Below, in pieces: positions 1,178-6,436 of a DNA stretch of 64,000 bases. Position 1 is the first letter of the stretch. Each line of letters opens with the position of its first letter. Where the stretch lies: positions 1-64,000 of the forward strand of contig JAVBXY010000002.1 in NCBI GenBank assembly GCA_030824275.1, written 5' to 3'. The notes under the pieces are model-generated. The model made no database searches and was not told the origin of the DNA. It saw nothing but the letters and a program-made list of their open reading frames with translations. A program made the position numbers and the translations under genes. This DNA comes from Rhodocyclaceae bacterium. Lineage in GTDB: Bacteria; Pseudomonadota; Gammaproteobacteria; Burkholderiales; Rhodocyclaceae.

Positions 1178-2020
1178 TCACCAGTCCCCCGAGGCGCCGC
1201 CGCCGCCAAAGCTGCCGCCCCCGCCGGAGAATCCGCCGCCGGAGGAAAAGCCCCCGCCGCCACTGCTCCAGCCACCGCCGCCCGACCCGAAGCGGCCGAA
1301 GGAGAACACAAAGACGATGACCGCCGCGATGATCGCCGCAATCATGGAACCGAACATCGAAAACGCCAGCCAGGCGCCGACCGCCGAGGCAATCACGGAA
1401 CCGAAAATGCCGAACAGGCTGCGCAGGATGCCGGCAACGAACAGCAGGCCAAACAGCCAGGGCGTCCAGTCCCGCTCTTCGGCGGCGCTCTGCGATTGCG
1501 CCGCAGCTTGGGGCGCAAACTCGCCGCTGCCGCCCAGCGCCGCGTCCACCGCCTCGACCGCTGCAACCAGGCCGCCGGCGAAGTCGCCCTGCTTGAAGCG
1601 CGGCCCCATGCGCTCGGCGACGATGCGCTTGGCCACCGCGTCGGGAATCACGCCCTCCAGTCCGTAGCCGACCTCGATGCGCATCTTGCGGTCGTTCTTG
1701 GCGACGATAATGATGAGGCCGTCGTCCTTGCCTTTATGACCAATCTTCCATGCCCCGGCGAGACGGATGCCGAACTGCTCCATGGTCTCGGGCTGCACGC
1801 TCGGCAGCAGCAGGATCGCGAGCTGCGCGCCACGCGTGCTCTCGATGCCGGCGAGCAGGCTGTCGAGGTGCGCCTGCTGCGTGGCGTCGAGGGTGGCGGT
1901 GAGATCGGTGACGCGCGCCTTGAGCGCCGGGACCGGCACCTCGGCGCCGGCCACTGGCGGCAACAGCGCCAGCCAGAGCGCGGCGAGAAAGCCAGCCCAC
2001 CGAGCCCGACAAGGCATCAT
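1178..2020 (-). CDS. TPM-domain membrane protein, YgcG-like, Gly-rich tail
   Basis: This 280-residue exported membrane protein has a signal peptide at residues 1-26 (cleavage near VAGA-EV), then a TPM domain at about 31-160 with the conserved IEVGYGLEG motif near 116-124. Hydrophobic segments occupy 188-240, and the tail from 245 is almost pure Gly/Ser and ends in GDW. This is the standard build of YgcG-type proteins. It follows lemA by nine bases and precedes the short TPM gene by one. The lemA-TPM-TPM arrangement is common in proteobacteria and suggests an envelope complex, but its activity is not established. Confidence 0.9.
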   Translation of the reverse strand: MMPCRARWAGFLAALWLALLPPVAGAEVPVPALKARVTDLTATLDATQQAHLDSLLAGIESTRGAQLAILLLPSVQPETMEQFGIRLAGAWKIGHKGKDDGLIIIVAKNDRKMRIEVGYGLEGVIPDAVAKRIVAERMGPRFKQGDFAGGLVAAVEAVDAALGGSGEFAPQAAAQSQSAAEERDWTPWLFGLLFVAGILRSLFGIFGSVIASAVGAWLAFSMFGSMIAAIIAAVIVFVFSFGRFGSGGGGWSSGGGGFSSGGGFSGGGGSFGGGGASGDW

Positions 2021-2029
2021 TGCGATCGC

Positions 2030-2665
2030 TCAATAGCCGGCGGAAGTTGCACTCTGCGCTGGCGCAGCGGCGGGTGCCGCGTTGAACTTGATGGCCGGCG
2101 GCGTGGACACCGCCTTCTCGTCCTCGACCGTGAAATTGGCCTTGGTCTTCCAGCCCATCACGCCCGCCGTCAGGCTGTTGGGGAAGGTGCGCACCGAGAC
2201 GTTGTATTCCTGCACGGTCTTGATGTAGCGGTTGCGCGCCACGGTGATGCGGTTCTCGGTGCCCTCGACCTGAGCCTGCAAGTCGCGGAAATTGGCATCG
2301 GCCTTGAGCTGCGGATAGTTCTCCGCCACCACCAGCAGCCGCGACAGGGCGCCGCCGAGATCGCCCTGGGCCTTCTGGAACTTGGCAAAGGCGGCCGGAT
2401 CGTTCACCAGCTCCGGCGTCGCCTTCAGCCCGGCGACATTGGCGCGGGCCTCGGTGACGCGGGTCAGCACGTCCTTCTCGTGGCTGGCGTAGCCCTGCAC
2501 CACGGAGACGAGGTTGGGGATCAGGTCGGCGCGGCGCTTGTATTGGTTGAGCACTTCGGACCAGGCGGCATTCACCGCCTCGTCGTTGATCTGGATCTGG
2601 TTGTAGCCGCAGCCCGAGAGCAGCGTGGCGGCAAAGGCGAGGACGGCGAGCAGACGCAAACGCAT
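2030..2665 (-). CDS. lemA: LemA family lipoprotein
   Basis: This 211-residue LemA protein has a lipoprotein signal with lipobox LLSGC (Cys19), then the LemA helical domain: the RRADLIPNLVSVVQGYASHE block, the YPQLKADANFRDLQAQVEGT block and the ARNRYIKTVQEYN block. The start was set at the ATG giving MRLRLLAVLAF, which has GGAG seven bases upstream; the longer open frame upstream adds no homologous sequence. It heads a lemA-TPM-TPM operon. LemA proteins are membrane-associated coiled-coil proteins of unclear role. The Ala-rich C-terminal 20 residues are low complexity. Confidence 0.93.
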   Translation of the reverse strand: MRLRLLAVLAFAATLLSGCGYNQIQINDEAVNAAWSEVLNQYKRRADLIPNLVSVVQGYASHEKDVLTRVTEARANVAGLKATPELVNDPAAFAKFQKAQGDLGGALSRLLVVAENYPQLKADANFRDLQAQVEGTENRITVARNRYIKTVQEYNVSVRTFPNSLTAGVMGWKTKANFTVEDEKAVSTPPAIKFNAAPAAAPAQSATSAGY

Positions 2666-2733
2666 GACGATCTCCATCGAAGGGGGAAACACGCCCAATA
2701 TGGCGGTGGCAAAGGGGAATTGCAAGTGTCGTC

Positions 2734-2757
2734 GCCGTGGCGCCATGGCCGACTTTT
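2734..2757 (-). repeat. dispersed 24-bp element, copy 1 (divergent)
   Basis: This intergenic copy lies between lemA and the TerB-like gene. It keeps the full GCCGACTTTT end and the opposite GCCGT end, with four or five mismatches in the middle (G at three inner positions and TG for GC). The element's T-rich end points right. Confidence 0.55.
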
Positions 2758-2805
2758 CGCGGCGGACTACAATGGCCGCCTCCCGCCGCCACACCGCAGA
2801 CCGCC

Positions 2806-3294
2806 ATGATTGCCAGCATCAAGGACTTCTTCAGCCAGTTCATCGAACCGGGTACGCAACACGGAACGCCGCAGCATGCCGCCGCCGGCGTGCACGCGCT
2901 GCAAGTTGCCACCGCCGCGCTGCTGCTGGAAATGATGCGTATGGACGAGCGCATCACCGAGGCCGAACGCCAGTCCGTCACCAACACCCTGCAACGCCAT
3001 TTCAGCCTCGACGCCGCCCAGCTCGACACCCTGATCGTGCTGGCCGAACGGGAAGCGCAGCAGGCCAGCGGCTATTACGAATTCACCTCGCGGATCAACC
3101 AGGCCTGCGATGCCGCGCAGAAAGTCCGCATCGTCGAATACCTCTGGCAGGTGGCCCTCGCCGACGGCCATCTCGACGCCCATGAACTGCACCTGATGCG
3201 CAAGATCACCGACCTGCTGCACGTCTCCCATGCCGACAACGCCGCCGCCAAGCAGCGGGCGCGGGAAACCACCGGGGTACCACCGGCGCGATAG
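2806..3294 (+). CDS. TerB-like tellurite-resistance-family protein
   Basis: This 162-residue soluble protein is all-helical and resembles the TerB/DjlA-N family. The central part carries the family pattern of a helix with MMRMDERITEAERQ, a linker, then VALADGHLDAHELHLMRKI near residues 120-138. The repeated D-x-x-I/L-x-x-x-E acidic positions are the proposed metal-binding signature. The start was taken at the ATG giving MIASIKDFFSQF. It is divergent from lemA and stands alone. A TerB-type protein outside a ter operon is usually annotated only by domain, and tellurite resistance should not be inferred. Confidence 0.85.
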   Translation: MIASIKDFFSQFIEPGTQHGTPQHAAAGVHALQVATAALLLEMMRMDERITEAERQSVTNTLQRHFSLDAAQLDTLIVLAEREAQQASGYYEFTSRINQACDAAQKVRIVEYLWQVALADGHLDAHELHLMRKITDLLHVSHADNAAAKQRARETTGVPPAR

Positions 3295-3343: not shown

Positions 3344-3456
3344 CAGCGCCGTCAGGGGAGTTCAGCGGCGGGGAGAATACGGAGGGTGGTCATGCGAGGA
3401 ATTGTGAAAAAACCGGGCAAATGCCCATGCTAGAATTACAGGAAGCACACAATAAC

Positions 3457-3486
3457 TTATTGTTTATTATGATCAATAAACAATAA
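3457..3486. promoter_or_regulatory. perfect AT-rich inverted repeat upstream of exported-protein genes
   Basis: The arms TTATTGTTTATT (3457-3468) and AATAAACAATAA (3475-3486) are perfect reverse complements around a 6-base centre. The repeat sits 20 bases before the beta-barrel start codon in an unusually AT-rich patch. It could be an operator, a site for a DNA-bending protein or a 5' leader hairpin. No T-run terminator follows it. Confidence 0.6.
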
Positions 3487-3506
3487 CATCATATCAAGAG
3501 GCCCTT

Positions 3507-4316
3507 ATGGCTGTAACACTGAAGATCCTGGGCCTCGCACTTGCGCTGGCTTGCGCCACCACCCATGCCGCTGACGACTGGAGCGTCTCCGGCGGTTTGA
3601 CATTGCGCCAGGCCCGCTCCACCCAGCCCGGTGCCGAAAGTACCGACAAGGGCACATCCGCCAATGCCATGGTGACCAAGCAGGTGGATGAATGGACGCT
3701 CGGCGGCGGCCTCAGTTACTCGCTCAGTACCACGGATGCGGCCGCCGGCACTGGTCGCTACCGTCCGTCCTCCACCTCGGCGGTGGCCATGGCTTCCCGT
3801 GATATCGGGGGTGGCCGTTCCGTATCGGCCACGCTGGGTTATGGCAACAGTGCCGTCAACAGTTCCCAGGTCAGCGGCGGCACCACGACCACCTATACGT
3901 CGAAGAGCGACTTCCTGTCCTCTTCCATCGGCCTGACCCAGGCCATCACCCTGAGCCGGCGCTCCCTGATCATCCTGTCGGCCCGCTACACGAATGTCGG
4001 CAGCCGCAGCCACACGTACACCAATAGTGCCGGTACCCGGACGCAGGGCTCGGACAGCGCCTTCGGCTTCTATTCGCTCGGCGCCGGTTACAGCCATCGC
4101 TTCGGCCGCACCACCGCCTTCGTGCAGACGGACTGGAACACCGCCAGCAAGGAATTCGTCGGCGGCACCGGCGACAAGGACTATTTCAGCATCAACACCG
4201 GGCTCAACTACCGGCTGGACGCCAAGACCAATCTCGGCCTGTCCTTCTCCACCATCGCCGGCAAGGCCCATTCCCGCGACAACAGCATCGGCGTCAACGT
4301 GCGTTACGCATTTTGA
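3507..4316 (+). CDS. outer-membrane beta-barrel protein (exported)
   Basis: This 269-residue protein has a signal peptide at residues 1-21 (cleavage near THA-ADD). The rest is made of alternating short amphipathic strands rich in Ser, Thr, Gly and Tyr, and the last residue is Phe, as required by outer-membrane assembly machinery (final residues VNVRYAF). The pattern of about twelve strands resembles the autotransporter-type or OmpA-like barrel families, but I recognise no specific member. It is the first of three consecutive genes for exported proteins on this strand, and the AT-rich inverted repeat lies just upstream. A small porin or an export barrel for the next two products are both possible. 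Confidence 0.75.
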   Translation: MAVTLKILGLALALACATTHAADDWSVSGGLTLRQARSTQPGAESTDKGTSANAMVTKQVDEWTLGGGLSYSLSTTDAAAGTGRYRPSSTSAVAMASRDIGGGRSVSATLGYGNSAVNSSQVSGGTTTTYTSKSDFLSSSIGLTQAITLSRRSLIILSARYTNVGSRSHTYTNSAGTRTQGSDSAFGFYSLGAGYSHRFGRTTAFVQTDWNTASKEFVGGTGDKDYFSINTGLNYRLDAKTNLGLSFSTIAGKAHSRDNSIGVNVRYAF

Positions 4317-4358
4317 AAGCGCATTGGGCCAGCTCAATCGTCAAGCAAGGAATTGATC

Positions 4359-5366
4359 ATGAAACTTAGTAAATCCCTCACCCTGTGGATGATGGCTTTT
4401 TTGTTCGCCACGGTGACGGCGGCCACCCCGGCGCATGCCGCCGCCATCACGCCGGCCGGCAAACAGGAACTCGTGGCCCTCTATATAACAATGTTTGGCC
4501 GTGCGCCAACCACAGCGCAATTGGCGGAAATGGTTACGGCAAGGGAAGGGGGCAGTAGCTTAGTGCAGGTGGCAACGACGCTGTCATCGGACGCGGGTTT
4601 CGCGCTCGTGGCCTCTAAGGATGTGGACTCTTTCGCGTTGTATTTGGCGAATGCACTGTTGGCCAGCGACGCACCGGCTGAAGCCAGGGACTGGGCAATA
4701 AATTGGACAGTGACCCAACTTCAAGGGACAACGACGAAAGCACAGGTAATTGCGGAAGCCGTGCAAGCTATGTGGGCCACAACTAATCCAATGTTTACCT
4801 CGTCCCAGACGGAACTTTTGGCCGATGTAACAGCTGCGCTAGCCGCCTTGGACTCACCCGTACCGACGGCCAAGGCCCTAAACGACATCCTGAAGGATCT
4901 GGACGAACTCACCGAAGACCTCAAGATCGAGGAAGAGGACAACAGCAACGACTACCAGCAGGCCAAGAACCGCATCGATAGCCAGAAGGGGGAGAAAGGC
5001 AAGAATGGCAAAAAGGACGAGCCGGATCTGAAAGACAAAACCGCCTCGCCGGCCACCCTGTTCAAGGACGTACAGGATTTGAAAGCCTCCCTCGAGAAAG
5101 ACGGCAGCGATGCGAACCGCGAGAAGGTTGCTAAGGCCATCGTCACCCTCCAGGCCAAGACCGCCATCTGGACGGCCAACTTTGGCGGCAACTGGACATC
5201 GGGCGGAACGGGGCCGGAGCACACCTTGCAAATGAAGGAAAGCCTGACGGCCATCAACGACCGCGTTACCACCAACATCCAGAACACCATACGCGGCGCC
5301 ACGACGTGTCGAACGGTCTACGATTCCGGGACGCACACCTACGTGACGAGATGCACGTCGAGTTGA
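4359..5366 (+). CDS. exported protein with DUF4214-like segment and acidic coiled coil
   Basis: This 335-residue protein has a signal peptide at about 1-27 (AHA-AAI). Residues 35-60 (ELVALYITMFGRAPTTAQLA) resemble the repeat unit of DUF4214-type surface proteins, which start with LY...FGRxP. A charged helix with DLDELTEDLKIEEEDN follows near 188-205, then a Lys/Gly-rich low-complexity stretch, and finally a tail with two Cys about 15 residues apart (TCRTVYD...VTRC). The ATG with AAGG eight bases upstream was preferred over a TTG two codons earlier. The part from about 4480 to 4870 is less GC-rich than the rest. No enzymatic motif is visible; function unknown. Confidence 0.7.
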   Translation: MKLSKSLTLWMMAFLFATVTAATPAHAAAITPAGKQELVALYITMFGRAPTTAQLAEMVTAREGGSSLVQVATTLSSDAGFALVASKDVDSFALYLANALLASDAPAEARDWAINWTVTQLQGTTTKAQVIAEAVQAMWATTNPMFTSSQTELLADVTAALAALDSPVPTAKALNDILKDLDELTEDLKIEEEDNSNDYQQAKNRIDSQKGEKGKNGKKDEPDLKDKTASPATLFKDVQDLKASLEKDGSDANREKVAKAIVTLQAKTAIWTANFGGNWTSGGTGPEHTLQMKESLTAINDRVTTNIQNTIRGATTCRTVYDSGTHTYVTRCTSS

Positions 5367-5379
5367 TGACCGGCCGTTG

Positions 5380-5403
5380 AAAAGTCGGCGCTGGCGGGAC
5401 GGC
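5380..5403 (+). repeat. dispersed 24-bp element, copy 3 (consensus)
   Basis: This intergenic copy matches the working consensus exactly and lies 13 bases after the stop of the preceding gene and 19 bases before the next start. The A-rich end points left (AAAAGTCGGCGC first). There is no inverted partner, so it does not form a terminator hairpin by itself. Confidence 0.9.
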
Positions 5404-5422
5404 TCATGAAAGGAAAATCGGG

Positions 5423-6436
5423 ATGGGTGTACTCAAATTGACTCGCAAGATGCTGATGATTGCCATCACGACCATCTTCGTCGTTCCGTTGCTGGCCAGT
5501 GCCGCCGCTCCTTTGTGGAACATCACACCATCCACACCCCTCCCGCAGGAGGTGGGCAAGGGTGAGCTTGTGACGATCAAATACACCGTTACCAACCAAT
5601 CGAGCAAACCCCACACGCTGGAAATGAAGGACATCCAGGGCGTCACCGTAACACCCGCCTCATGCGCTTTGAGCAAAGGCCAATCCTGCGAACTGACCCT
5701 GGTTATTGATGGCGCGAAGCTTGGCCCCAATGGCATTGCAGGCGGTCCCGTCGTCTGCCAACAGGGGAATAACAACCAGTGTTACCAACCGTCCAGCGTC
5801 AATCAGCTGAAAATTTCCCCGAAAGCGCCTCCGGCTCCGGCCAGTACCGCAACACCTGCGCCTGCGACTACGACCCAGGCAACCACGACTGGCAGCACAC
5901 TGTCCGACGACGACGCCCTGAAAGAGCTGAAAGCCCTGATCGAGGATCTGGAGATTGAAATCGAGGATGGCACGGGCTCGAAACCCCATTCGCTGACCAA
6001 CACCCTGCTGCAATTCGACCCGAGGATCGGCGAGTGGCATCCGCATTACGAACATGAACTGCCCAGGGGCCAAACCACTACTGCCAAGGATGCGCCGCAC
6101 GCCGCGCTGGTCTGGCTGAAGCGGCTGGTGAATTCCATCGAAGGCTACATGATCTCGGTCAAAAATCCGACCAACAGTGAAAGCGCCCGATCCAACATAT
6201 CCAGATCCTTGCAAAGCCAGATCAACAAGGCCGCATCCATCGTGAACGCGATTTCGCCCAAGACCACCACGACCGCAGGACAGGGTGGGGGCGGCACTCC
6301 GGTTGGCGCACAACAGGCCATCGACGACGCCACGCGCCGCGCCATGCAGACATCCATCCCCAGCCCCGCCGCCACGCCAACGCCTGCGCCCGCCAAGACT
6401 TGCTACAAGGTCGGCGAAGTAACCATGTGCCATTGA
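5423..6436 (+). CDS. exported protein with Ig-like domain and C-terminal Cys pair
   Basis: This 337-residue protein has a signal peptide at about 1-28 (ASA-AAP). An Ig-like beta domain covers about 30-130: a KYTVTNQSSKPHTL strand, a disulphide-prone CALSKGQSCELTL, and CQQGNNNQCYQPSSVNQLKI. This resembles the N-terminal module of some secreted Legionella-type proteins (family recollection only). A Pro/Ala/Thr linker leads to the acidic helix LKELKALIEDLEIEIEDG, which looks like the helix in the preceding gene. The protein ends TCYKVGEVTMCH, again a two-Cys tail. The start ATG has AAGGAAA upstream. The function is not known, and the pair looks like related cell-surface or secreted components. 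Confidence 0.7.
   Translation: MGVLKLTRKMLMIAITTIFVVPLLASAAAPLWNITPSTPLPQEVGKGELVTIKYTVTNQSSKPHTLEMKDIQGVTVTPASCALSKGQSCELTLVIDGAKLGPNGIAGGPVVCQQGNNNQCYQPSSVNQLKISPKAPPAPASTATPAPATTTQATTTGSTLSDDDALKELKALIEDLEIEIEDGTGSKPHSLTNTLLQFDPRIGEWHPHYEHELPRGQTTTAKDAPHAALVWLKRLVNSIEGYMISVKNPTNSESARSNISRSLQSQINKAASIVNAISPKTTTTAGQGGGGTPVGAQQAIDDATRRAMQTSIPSPAATPTPAPAKTCYKVGEVTMCH

Follow-up and report, generated by a model that had tools for sequence, protein, structure and literature searches.

A passenger-less 12-stranded barrel and its tailed exported partners: a possible surface display system in a Rhodocyclaceae bacterium

In a Rhodocyclaceae bacterium, three closely spaced co-directional genes (ORF1-ORF2-ORF3; 3507-6436, + strand) encode a predicted outer-membrane beta-barrel and two exported proteins, and judged from their sequences they may constitute a small undescribed system for displaying interchangeable proteins on the cell surface. 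The reading that we put first, with a probability of roughly one in three (0.35), is that the cluster is an outer-membrane export or anchoring/display unit that would work in a Fap-like manner without being Fap. The genes lie in a 64,000-nt stretch of DNA, here called the window, and are separated by gaps of 42 nt (ORF1/ORF2) and 56 nt (ORF2/ORF3), with a purine-rich stretch ahead of each of the three starts. The adjacency of three genes for exported proteins, which an earlier note on this DNA had reported, is borne out (Table 1); for ORF2, the ATG at 4359 is taken as the start, and the listing of open reading frames gives an upstream TTG at 4353. The cluster is flanked by a TerB-family gene upstream and by a DUF3683/FAD-linked oxidase gene downstream. 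The TerB-family gene (2809-3294) is on the other strand from a pair at 1178-2794 (-) that consists of a gene for a LemA-like lipoprotein (by inspection) and a TPM-domain gene (PF04536).

Table 1. Features of the cluster and of the DNA ahead of it (window positions)
Feature	Coordinates	Strand	Description
Promoter-like stretch	3415..3437	+	...CAAATGCCCATGCTAGAAT, extended -10 resemblance; by-eye comparison with second locus, weak
AT-rich inverted repeat	3457..3486	.	TTATTGTTTATT-ATGATC-AATAAACAATAA, between promoter-like stretch and ORF1
ORF1	3507..4316	+	269-aa predicted outer-membrane beta-barrel; signal peptide, 12 strands, C-terminal Phe
ORF2	4359..5366	+	335-aa exported protein; signal peptide, divergent DUF4214 region, acidic helix, helical region, Cys hairpin
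ORF2 front module (DUF4214-like)	4440..4871	+	profile versus shuffles; GC3 permutation
ORF2 acidic helix	4878..4946	+	LNDILKDLDELTEDLKIEEEDNS; conserved in second genome
ORF2 C-terminal tail	5304..5363	+	TCRTVYDSGTHTYVTRCTSS; predicted beta-hairpin, C317/C332 near strand ends
ORF3	5423..6436	+	337-aa exported protein; signal peptide, Legionella-type Ig-like domain, acidic helix, uncharacterised region, Cys-x8-Cys end
ORF3 front module (Ig-like)	5510..5830	+	sequence relatives in Legionella plasmids and G379
ORF3 C-terminal tail	6398..6433	+	TCYKVGEVTMCH; from sequence

The AlphaFold model of ORF1 (pLDDT 81) has 12 strands, which begin at residue 25, a few residues past the signal peptide, and the last of which ends with the C-terminal Phe; there is no passenger, pore helix, plug or periplasmic domain in the model. 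The best structural matches are autotransporter translocators (NalP, EspP, BrkA and AIDA-I; Foldseek 2e-16 to 4e-12, Z 23-25), with values for NalP (1uyn) of Foldseek 2.1e-16 and Z 24.7 at 2.7 A over 239 residues, and FapF, a 12-stranded polypeptide exporter, is matched with Z 20.5. The family PF03797 (Autotransporter) gives 1.3e-5 with ORF1, just below the cut-off, and is above the cut-off for both barrel relatives described below (5.8e-7 for the relative P0002). The predicted fold makes ORF1 a 12-stranded barrel of the autotransporter type without a passenger, which would reside in the outer membrane, in agreement with the outer-membrane barrel that had been proposed. Its third-position GC is 0.82.

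The DUF4214-like segment that had been noticed in ORF2 is there in a divergent form. PF13946 (DUF4214) does not reach E 1 with ORF2 itself, whereas with the collinear part of the relative in the second genome it gives 2.4e-16 (60 bits, curated cut-off 23.2), and against a small DUF4214 profile ORF2 scores 18.5 bits, the maximum among 2000 shuffles being 11.7. Further matches of the ORF2 front (E 3e-4 and 1e-3) are to DUF4214 regions at the C-termini of RTX-like proteins in G017, a relative from the family, where L006 and L008 are long RTX-like repeat proteins of this make-up. The low GC3 of the front module (0.60 vs 0.81 in the rest of the gene; permutation p 0.0001) suggests that the module may have been acquired separately or swapped in; no such contrast between front and back is present in the ORF2 relative of the second genome (p 0.34). 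At the other end of the protein, the sole two cysteines, C317 and C332 (spacing x14), both fall within the last 21 residues, as they do in 0.3% of shuffles of the protein's own composition. The structure prediction of ORF2 is poor (pLDDT 45), which is why the C-terminal hairpin alone (strands 316-322 and 327-333, low confidence) is quoted from it, as a hint that the tail may be a beta-hairpin that bears both cysteines.

In the case of ORF3, residues about 25-130 share 38-49% identity with proteins of three Legionella plasmids, including 49% over 100 aa with a Legionella lytica plasmid protein, and in one of the plasmids the protein is of the 'sialidase family' and has the domain close to its start. 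The domain has two Cys pairs and includes the stretch GPVVCQQ...QCYQPS. A genome of the same class (G379) has six copies of this Legionella-type domain (L041, L049, L051, L053, L054 and L055), of which the in-frame ones in L054 and L055 stand directly past a signal peptide, one in-frame copy preceding an unrelated body. What had been called an Ig-like domain is thus supported by sequence relatives of the Legionella-type domain, with no fold behind the label. For the back half of ORF3 no relative could be recognised, nor does it contain a catalytic domain, and the protein ends with C327-x8-C336.

Both exported proteins do carry an acidic helix, as had been claimed: residues 175-196 of ORF2 and 163-184 of ORF3 are identical at 12 of 22 positions (two-sequence E 5e-4), and both segments fit a heptad pattern. 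Of 2000 shuffles, 6 score as high as the alignment of the two C-terminal halves, and this signal vanishes once the helix is removed (802/2000 shuffles equally good), so a homology of the back halves beyond the helix is not supported by the shuffle test. The tails, described as similar in the earlier note, have in common that a Cys pair ends both proteins, and their likeness is limited to that pair (793/2000 shuffles equally good).

A barrel gene followed by a gene for an exported partner is also found outside this genome. In 'Candidatus Nitricoxidireducens bremensis' (G029), a Sterolibacteriaceae MAG from a nitric-oxide enrichment (PMC10390337) that belongs to another genus, a barrel with 75% identity to ORF1 precedes an ORF2 relative with 42% identity overall and 54% in the back half. 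In the helix, all 14 consecutive residues of ELTEDLKIEEEDNS are identical, with synonymous changes in the DNA, and in the tail HTYVTRCTS is identical, the last 15 residues shown agreeing at 11 positions, as compared to mostly 20-60% identity per 15-residue window outside these motifs; on this comparison, no other parts of ORF2 are as constrained as helix and tail. A third and distant barrel (36% identity) is encoded in another genus (G165), and 20 nt past it follows the gene of an exported lipoprotein, the body of which is non-homologous to ORF2 and the end of which, CRRVYSMALHQFVCL (last residues GGGGCRRVYSMALHQFVCL), resembles the CRTVYDSGTHTYVTRC of ORF2. None of 2000 shuffles of the tail gives as good a match, and 11 of 2000 do so when the whole protein is shuffled; no significant likeness is seen between the G165 and G029 tails (130/2000 shuffles). 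As the lipoprotein is Cys-rich throughout (13 Cys), with a tail Cys pair in 30% of shuffles of its own composition, its Cys pair alone is not taken as evidence. The flanking genes differ between the three loci (terB and FAD oxidase here, hemerythrin and gcvT in G029, lolA and rarA in G165; gcvT, lolA and rarA assigned by inspection), and the barrel-partner linkage is therefore not simply inherited synteny. The combination of a barrel with a tailed exported partner thus recurs, as far as sequences can tell, at three loci in three different neighbourhoods. A fourth barrel is a fragment in G044 (L062 8028-8447) that adjoins an htpG-like gene, has no tailed neighbour, and is probably a decayed copy. 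For ORF3, a search of the second genome gave nothing at E<=0.01, and the other barrel loci likewise lack a relative of it. Co-occurrence in other genomes, which had been set beforehand as the check on the cluster, therefore holds for barrel and ORF2, which are together in another genus, and does not hold for the three-gene set, which does not recur.

The number of such loci is small. Beyond the three loci and the G044 fragment, searches of about 400 family genomes, of 330 genomes of the order and of plasmid and viral collections turned up no further relatives. In assembled genome contigs, the barrel had no match and the C-terminal half of ORF2 matched the second genome alone; viral contigs matched neither the barrel nor the ORF2 C-half, plasmids matched neither the barrels nor ORF2, the G165 partner or the isolated tail, and phages had no match to ORF3. 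A sequence search of solved structures gave nothing relevant, PHROGs gave no match, and the only PADLOC match was that of ORF2 with PbeC at 12.9 bits without a significant stretch, which does not point to anti-phage defence. Weak matches of the ORF2 C-half in genus g48 and other relatives were, where examined, to low-complexity Ala/Lys/Pro-rich or wrong-frame sequences and were set aside as chance; weak barrel matches (E 1e-4 to 1e-2) were inside large unrelated ORFs or in the wrong frame, and a crude count of proteins ending in a Cys pair contained mostly wrong-frame ORFs and was not used as a background rate.

Upstream of ORF1, an inverted repeat with 12-bp arms (3457-3468 and 3475-3486; 100% complementary, 6-nt spacer) has no second copy in the window, where shuffles lead one to expect 0. 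It had been described as a perfect AT-rich palindrome, which is right for the arms, the AT-richness and the position ahead of the set; as a whole it is an inverted repeat with a spacer. It may be a candidate operator, possibly a local one, or a 5'UTR hairpin. At the second locus (G029) the repeat is absent, the one short element common to both upstream regions being 'ATGCTAGAAT' (by eye; weak), and the repeat does not define the system. The promoter-like stretch ahead of it was not flagged in a consensus scan.

If the cluster is an export or display unit, ORF2 and ORF3 would cross the inner membrane by means of their Sec signal peptides, and their front domains, DUF4214-like and Ig-like, would be exchangeable surface modules. 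The back halves would carry the element that is recognised by the barrel or a partner, namely the acidic heptad helix and the C-terminal hairpin; the hairpin, closed by a disulphide formed in the periplasm, could serve for recognition or anchoring (docking), and the helix may replace the coiled coil that FapF bears on its own chain. The barrel would then either be the exit for ORF2 and ORF3, as FapF is for FapB, FapC and FapE, or keep them attached to the membrane through their tails. In favour of this reading are the barrel-ORF2 adjacency in a second genus, the conservation of helix and tail, the tail likeness in G165, the differing neighbours of the three loci, and the match to autotransporter translocators and to FapF. 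Against it stand the small number of full barrel loci, just three, plus the G044 fragment, which has no tailed neighbour; the lack of ORF3 relatives at the other loci; the Cys-richness of the G165 partner and the lack of significant likeness between its tail and that of G029; and the good match of ORF1 to porins.

Many small 12-stranded barrels are porins, and a slightly less probable alternative is that ORF1 is a porin for small molecules or oligosaccharides, with ORF2 and ORF3 as binding proteins, in the periplasm or on the surface, that belong to its uptake pathway and whose Cys tails merely stabilise the C-terminal hairpin. KdgM (Z 22.4) and NanC (Z 21.2) match ORF1 well, and a model without a plug or periplasmic domain would suit a porin, but the genes immediately around the three loci include none recognisable as coding for a transporter, a catabolic enzyme or a regulator, and in the sampled relatives the DUF4214 and Ig-like domains are in RTX-like or secreted proteins, not in solute-binding ones. 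A split autotransporter-like system, in which the barrel would recognise separately made Sec-exported proteins in trans by their C-terminal disulphide hairpin, with swappable front domains, appears unlikely, to the same degree as a pairing of ORF2 and ORF3 as surface or matrix proteins via their heptad helices, with the barrel as a mere anchor or an unrelated operon partner. Such a pairing would agree with the likeness and the equal heptad spacing of the two helices and with the C-terminal position of DUF4214 in RTX-like proteins of a relative, but at the second locus the helix is fully conserved despite the missing ORF3, so the ORF2 helix must serve something other than ORF3, and all three loci retain the linkage of barrel and exported protein. 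That three lineage-specific exported genes are adjacent by chance, their Cys pairs being fortuitous and the acidic helix of low complexity, would fit with the sequence difference between the ORF2 and ORF3 tails, the ease with which acidic helices match and the few loci, but is more improbable still, given the barrel-ORF2 linkage across genera in differing neighbourhoods, the strong conservation of precisely these motifs, and the tail likeness at the third locus.

The 'undescribed surface or secretion system' of the earlier note is thus partly supported and stays plausible. A barrel with a tailed partner recurs at three loci; the three-gene set does not, and the likeness of ORF3 to ORF2 consists of one short helix and a Cys pair. 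Because of the few loci and the lack of ORF3 relatives, it is with modest confidence that we regard the cluster as a rare lineage-specific betaproteobacterial envelope set in which the linkage of barrel and partner is reproducible and the common tail suggestive. Should the tail serve the barrel as a signal for docking or export, the cluster would be a minimal outer-membrane export or display device of one barrel and tagged cargo, and this would bear on the substrate choice by Fap-type barrels; for FapC, no targeting sequence was known at the time of a 2018 review (PMC6173800). If the export or display reading is false, a rare, lineage-specific envelope gene set is still at hand.

Among the known systems, type Va autotransporters (NalP, EspP, BrkA, AIDA-I) have the 12-stranded C-terminal translocator barrel in common with ORF1, but carry passenger and pore helix in the same chain, whereas the 269-aa ORF1 has neither; without a passenger, the cluster as modelled falls outside the type Va definition. 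Type Vb two-partner systems have a 16-stranded TpsB/Omp85 barrel with POTRA domains and a TpsA with a TPS domain, in contrast to the 12 predicted strands of ORF1 and its lack of periplasmic domains, and no TPS domain is among the Pfam matches of the cluster. With regard to the exported proteins, the G029 relative is a DUF4214 (PF13946) protein above the curated cut-off, whereas the region of ORF2 is divergent and, unlike the DUF4214 regions at the C-terminus of the long repeat proteins of G017, directly follows the signal peptide; ORF3 has the N-terminal Ig-like domain in common with Legionella-type exported proteins, and its remainder is unlike any of them. In the Fap system, FapF is a passenger-less 12-stranded barrel that exports the partner proteins FapB, FapC and FapE (PMC5557850, PMC6173800), and FapC has a conserved CxxC motif (PMC6173800). 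Common to Fap and the cluster are the operon, the passenger-less 12-stranded barrel, often annotated as autotransporter, and the several Sec-exported partners. Fap differs in that FapF needs an N-terminal periplasmic coiled coil, for which ORF1 has no residues between signal peptide and barrel, and in that its operon includes the FapD (C39) protease, which has no equivalent among the neighbouring window genes (TerB-like, FAD oxidase). These two missing components, which also speak against the export unit, are the reason why the cluster is not filed as Fap. Furthermore, FapB and FapC have amyloid repeats, none of which were recognised by eye in ORF2 or ORF3, and the partners in the cluster carry DUF4214-like or Ig-like domains and Cys spacings of x14 or x8. 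As a precedent for the export of several partners by a passenger-less 12-stranded barrel, Fap nevertheless comes closest.
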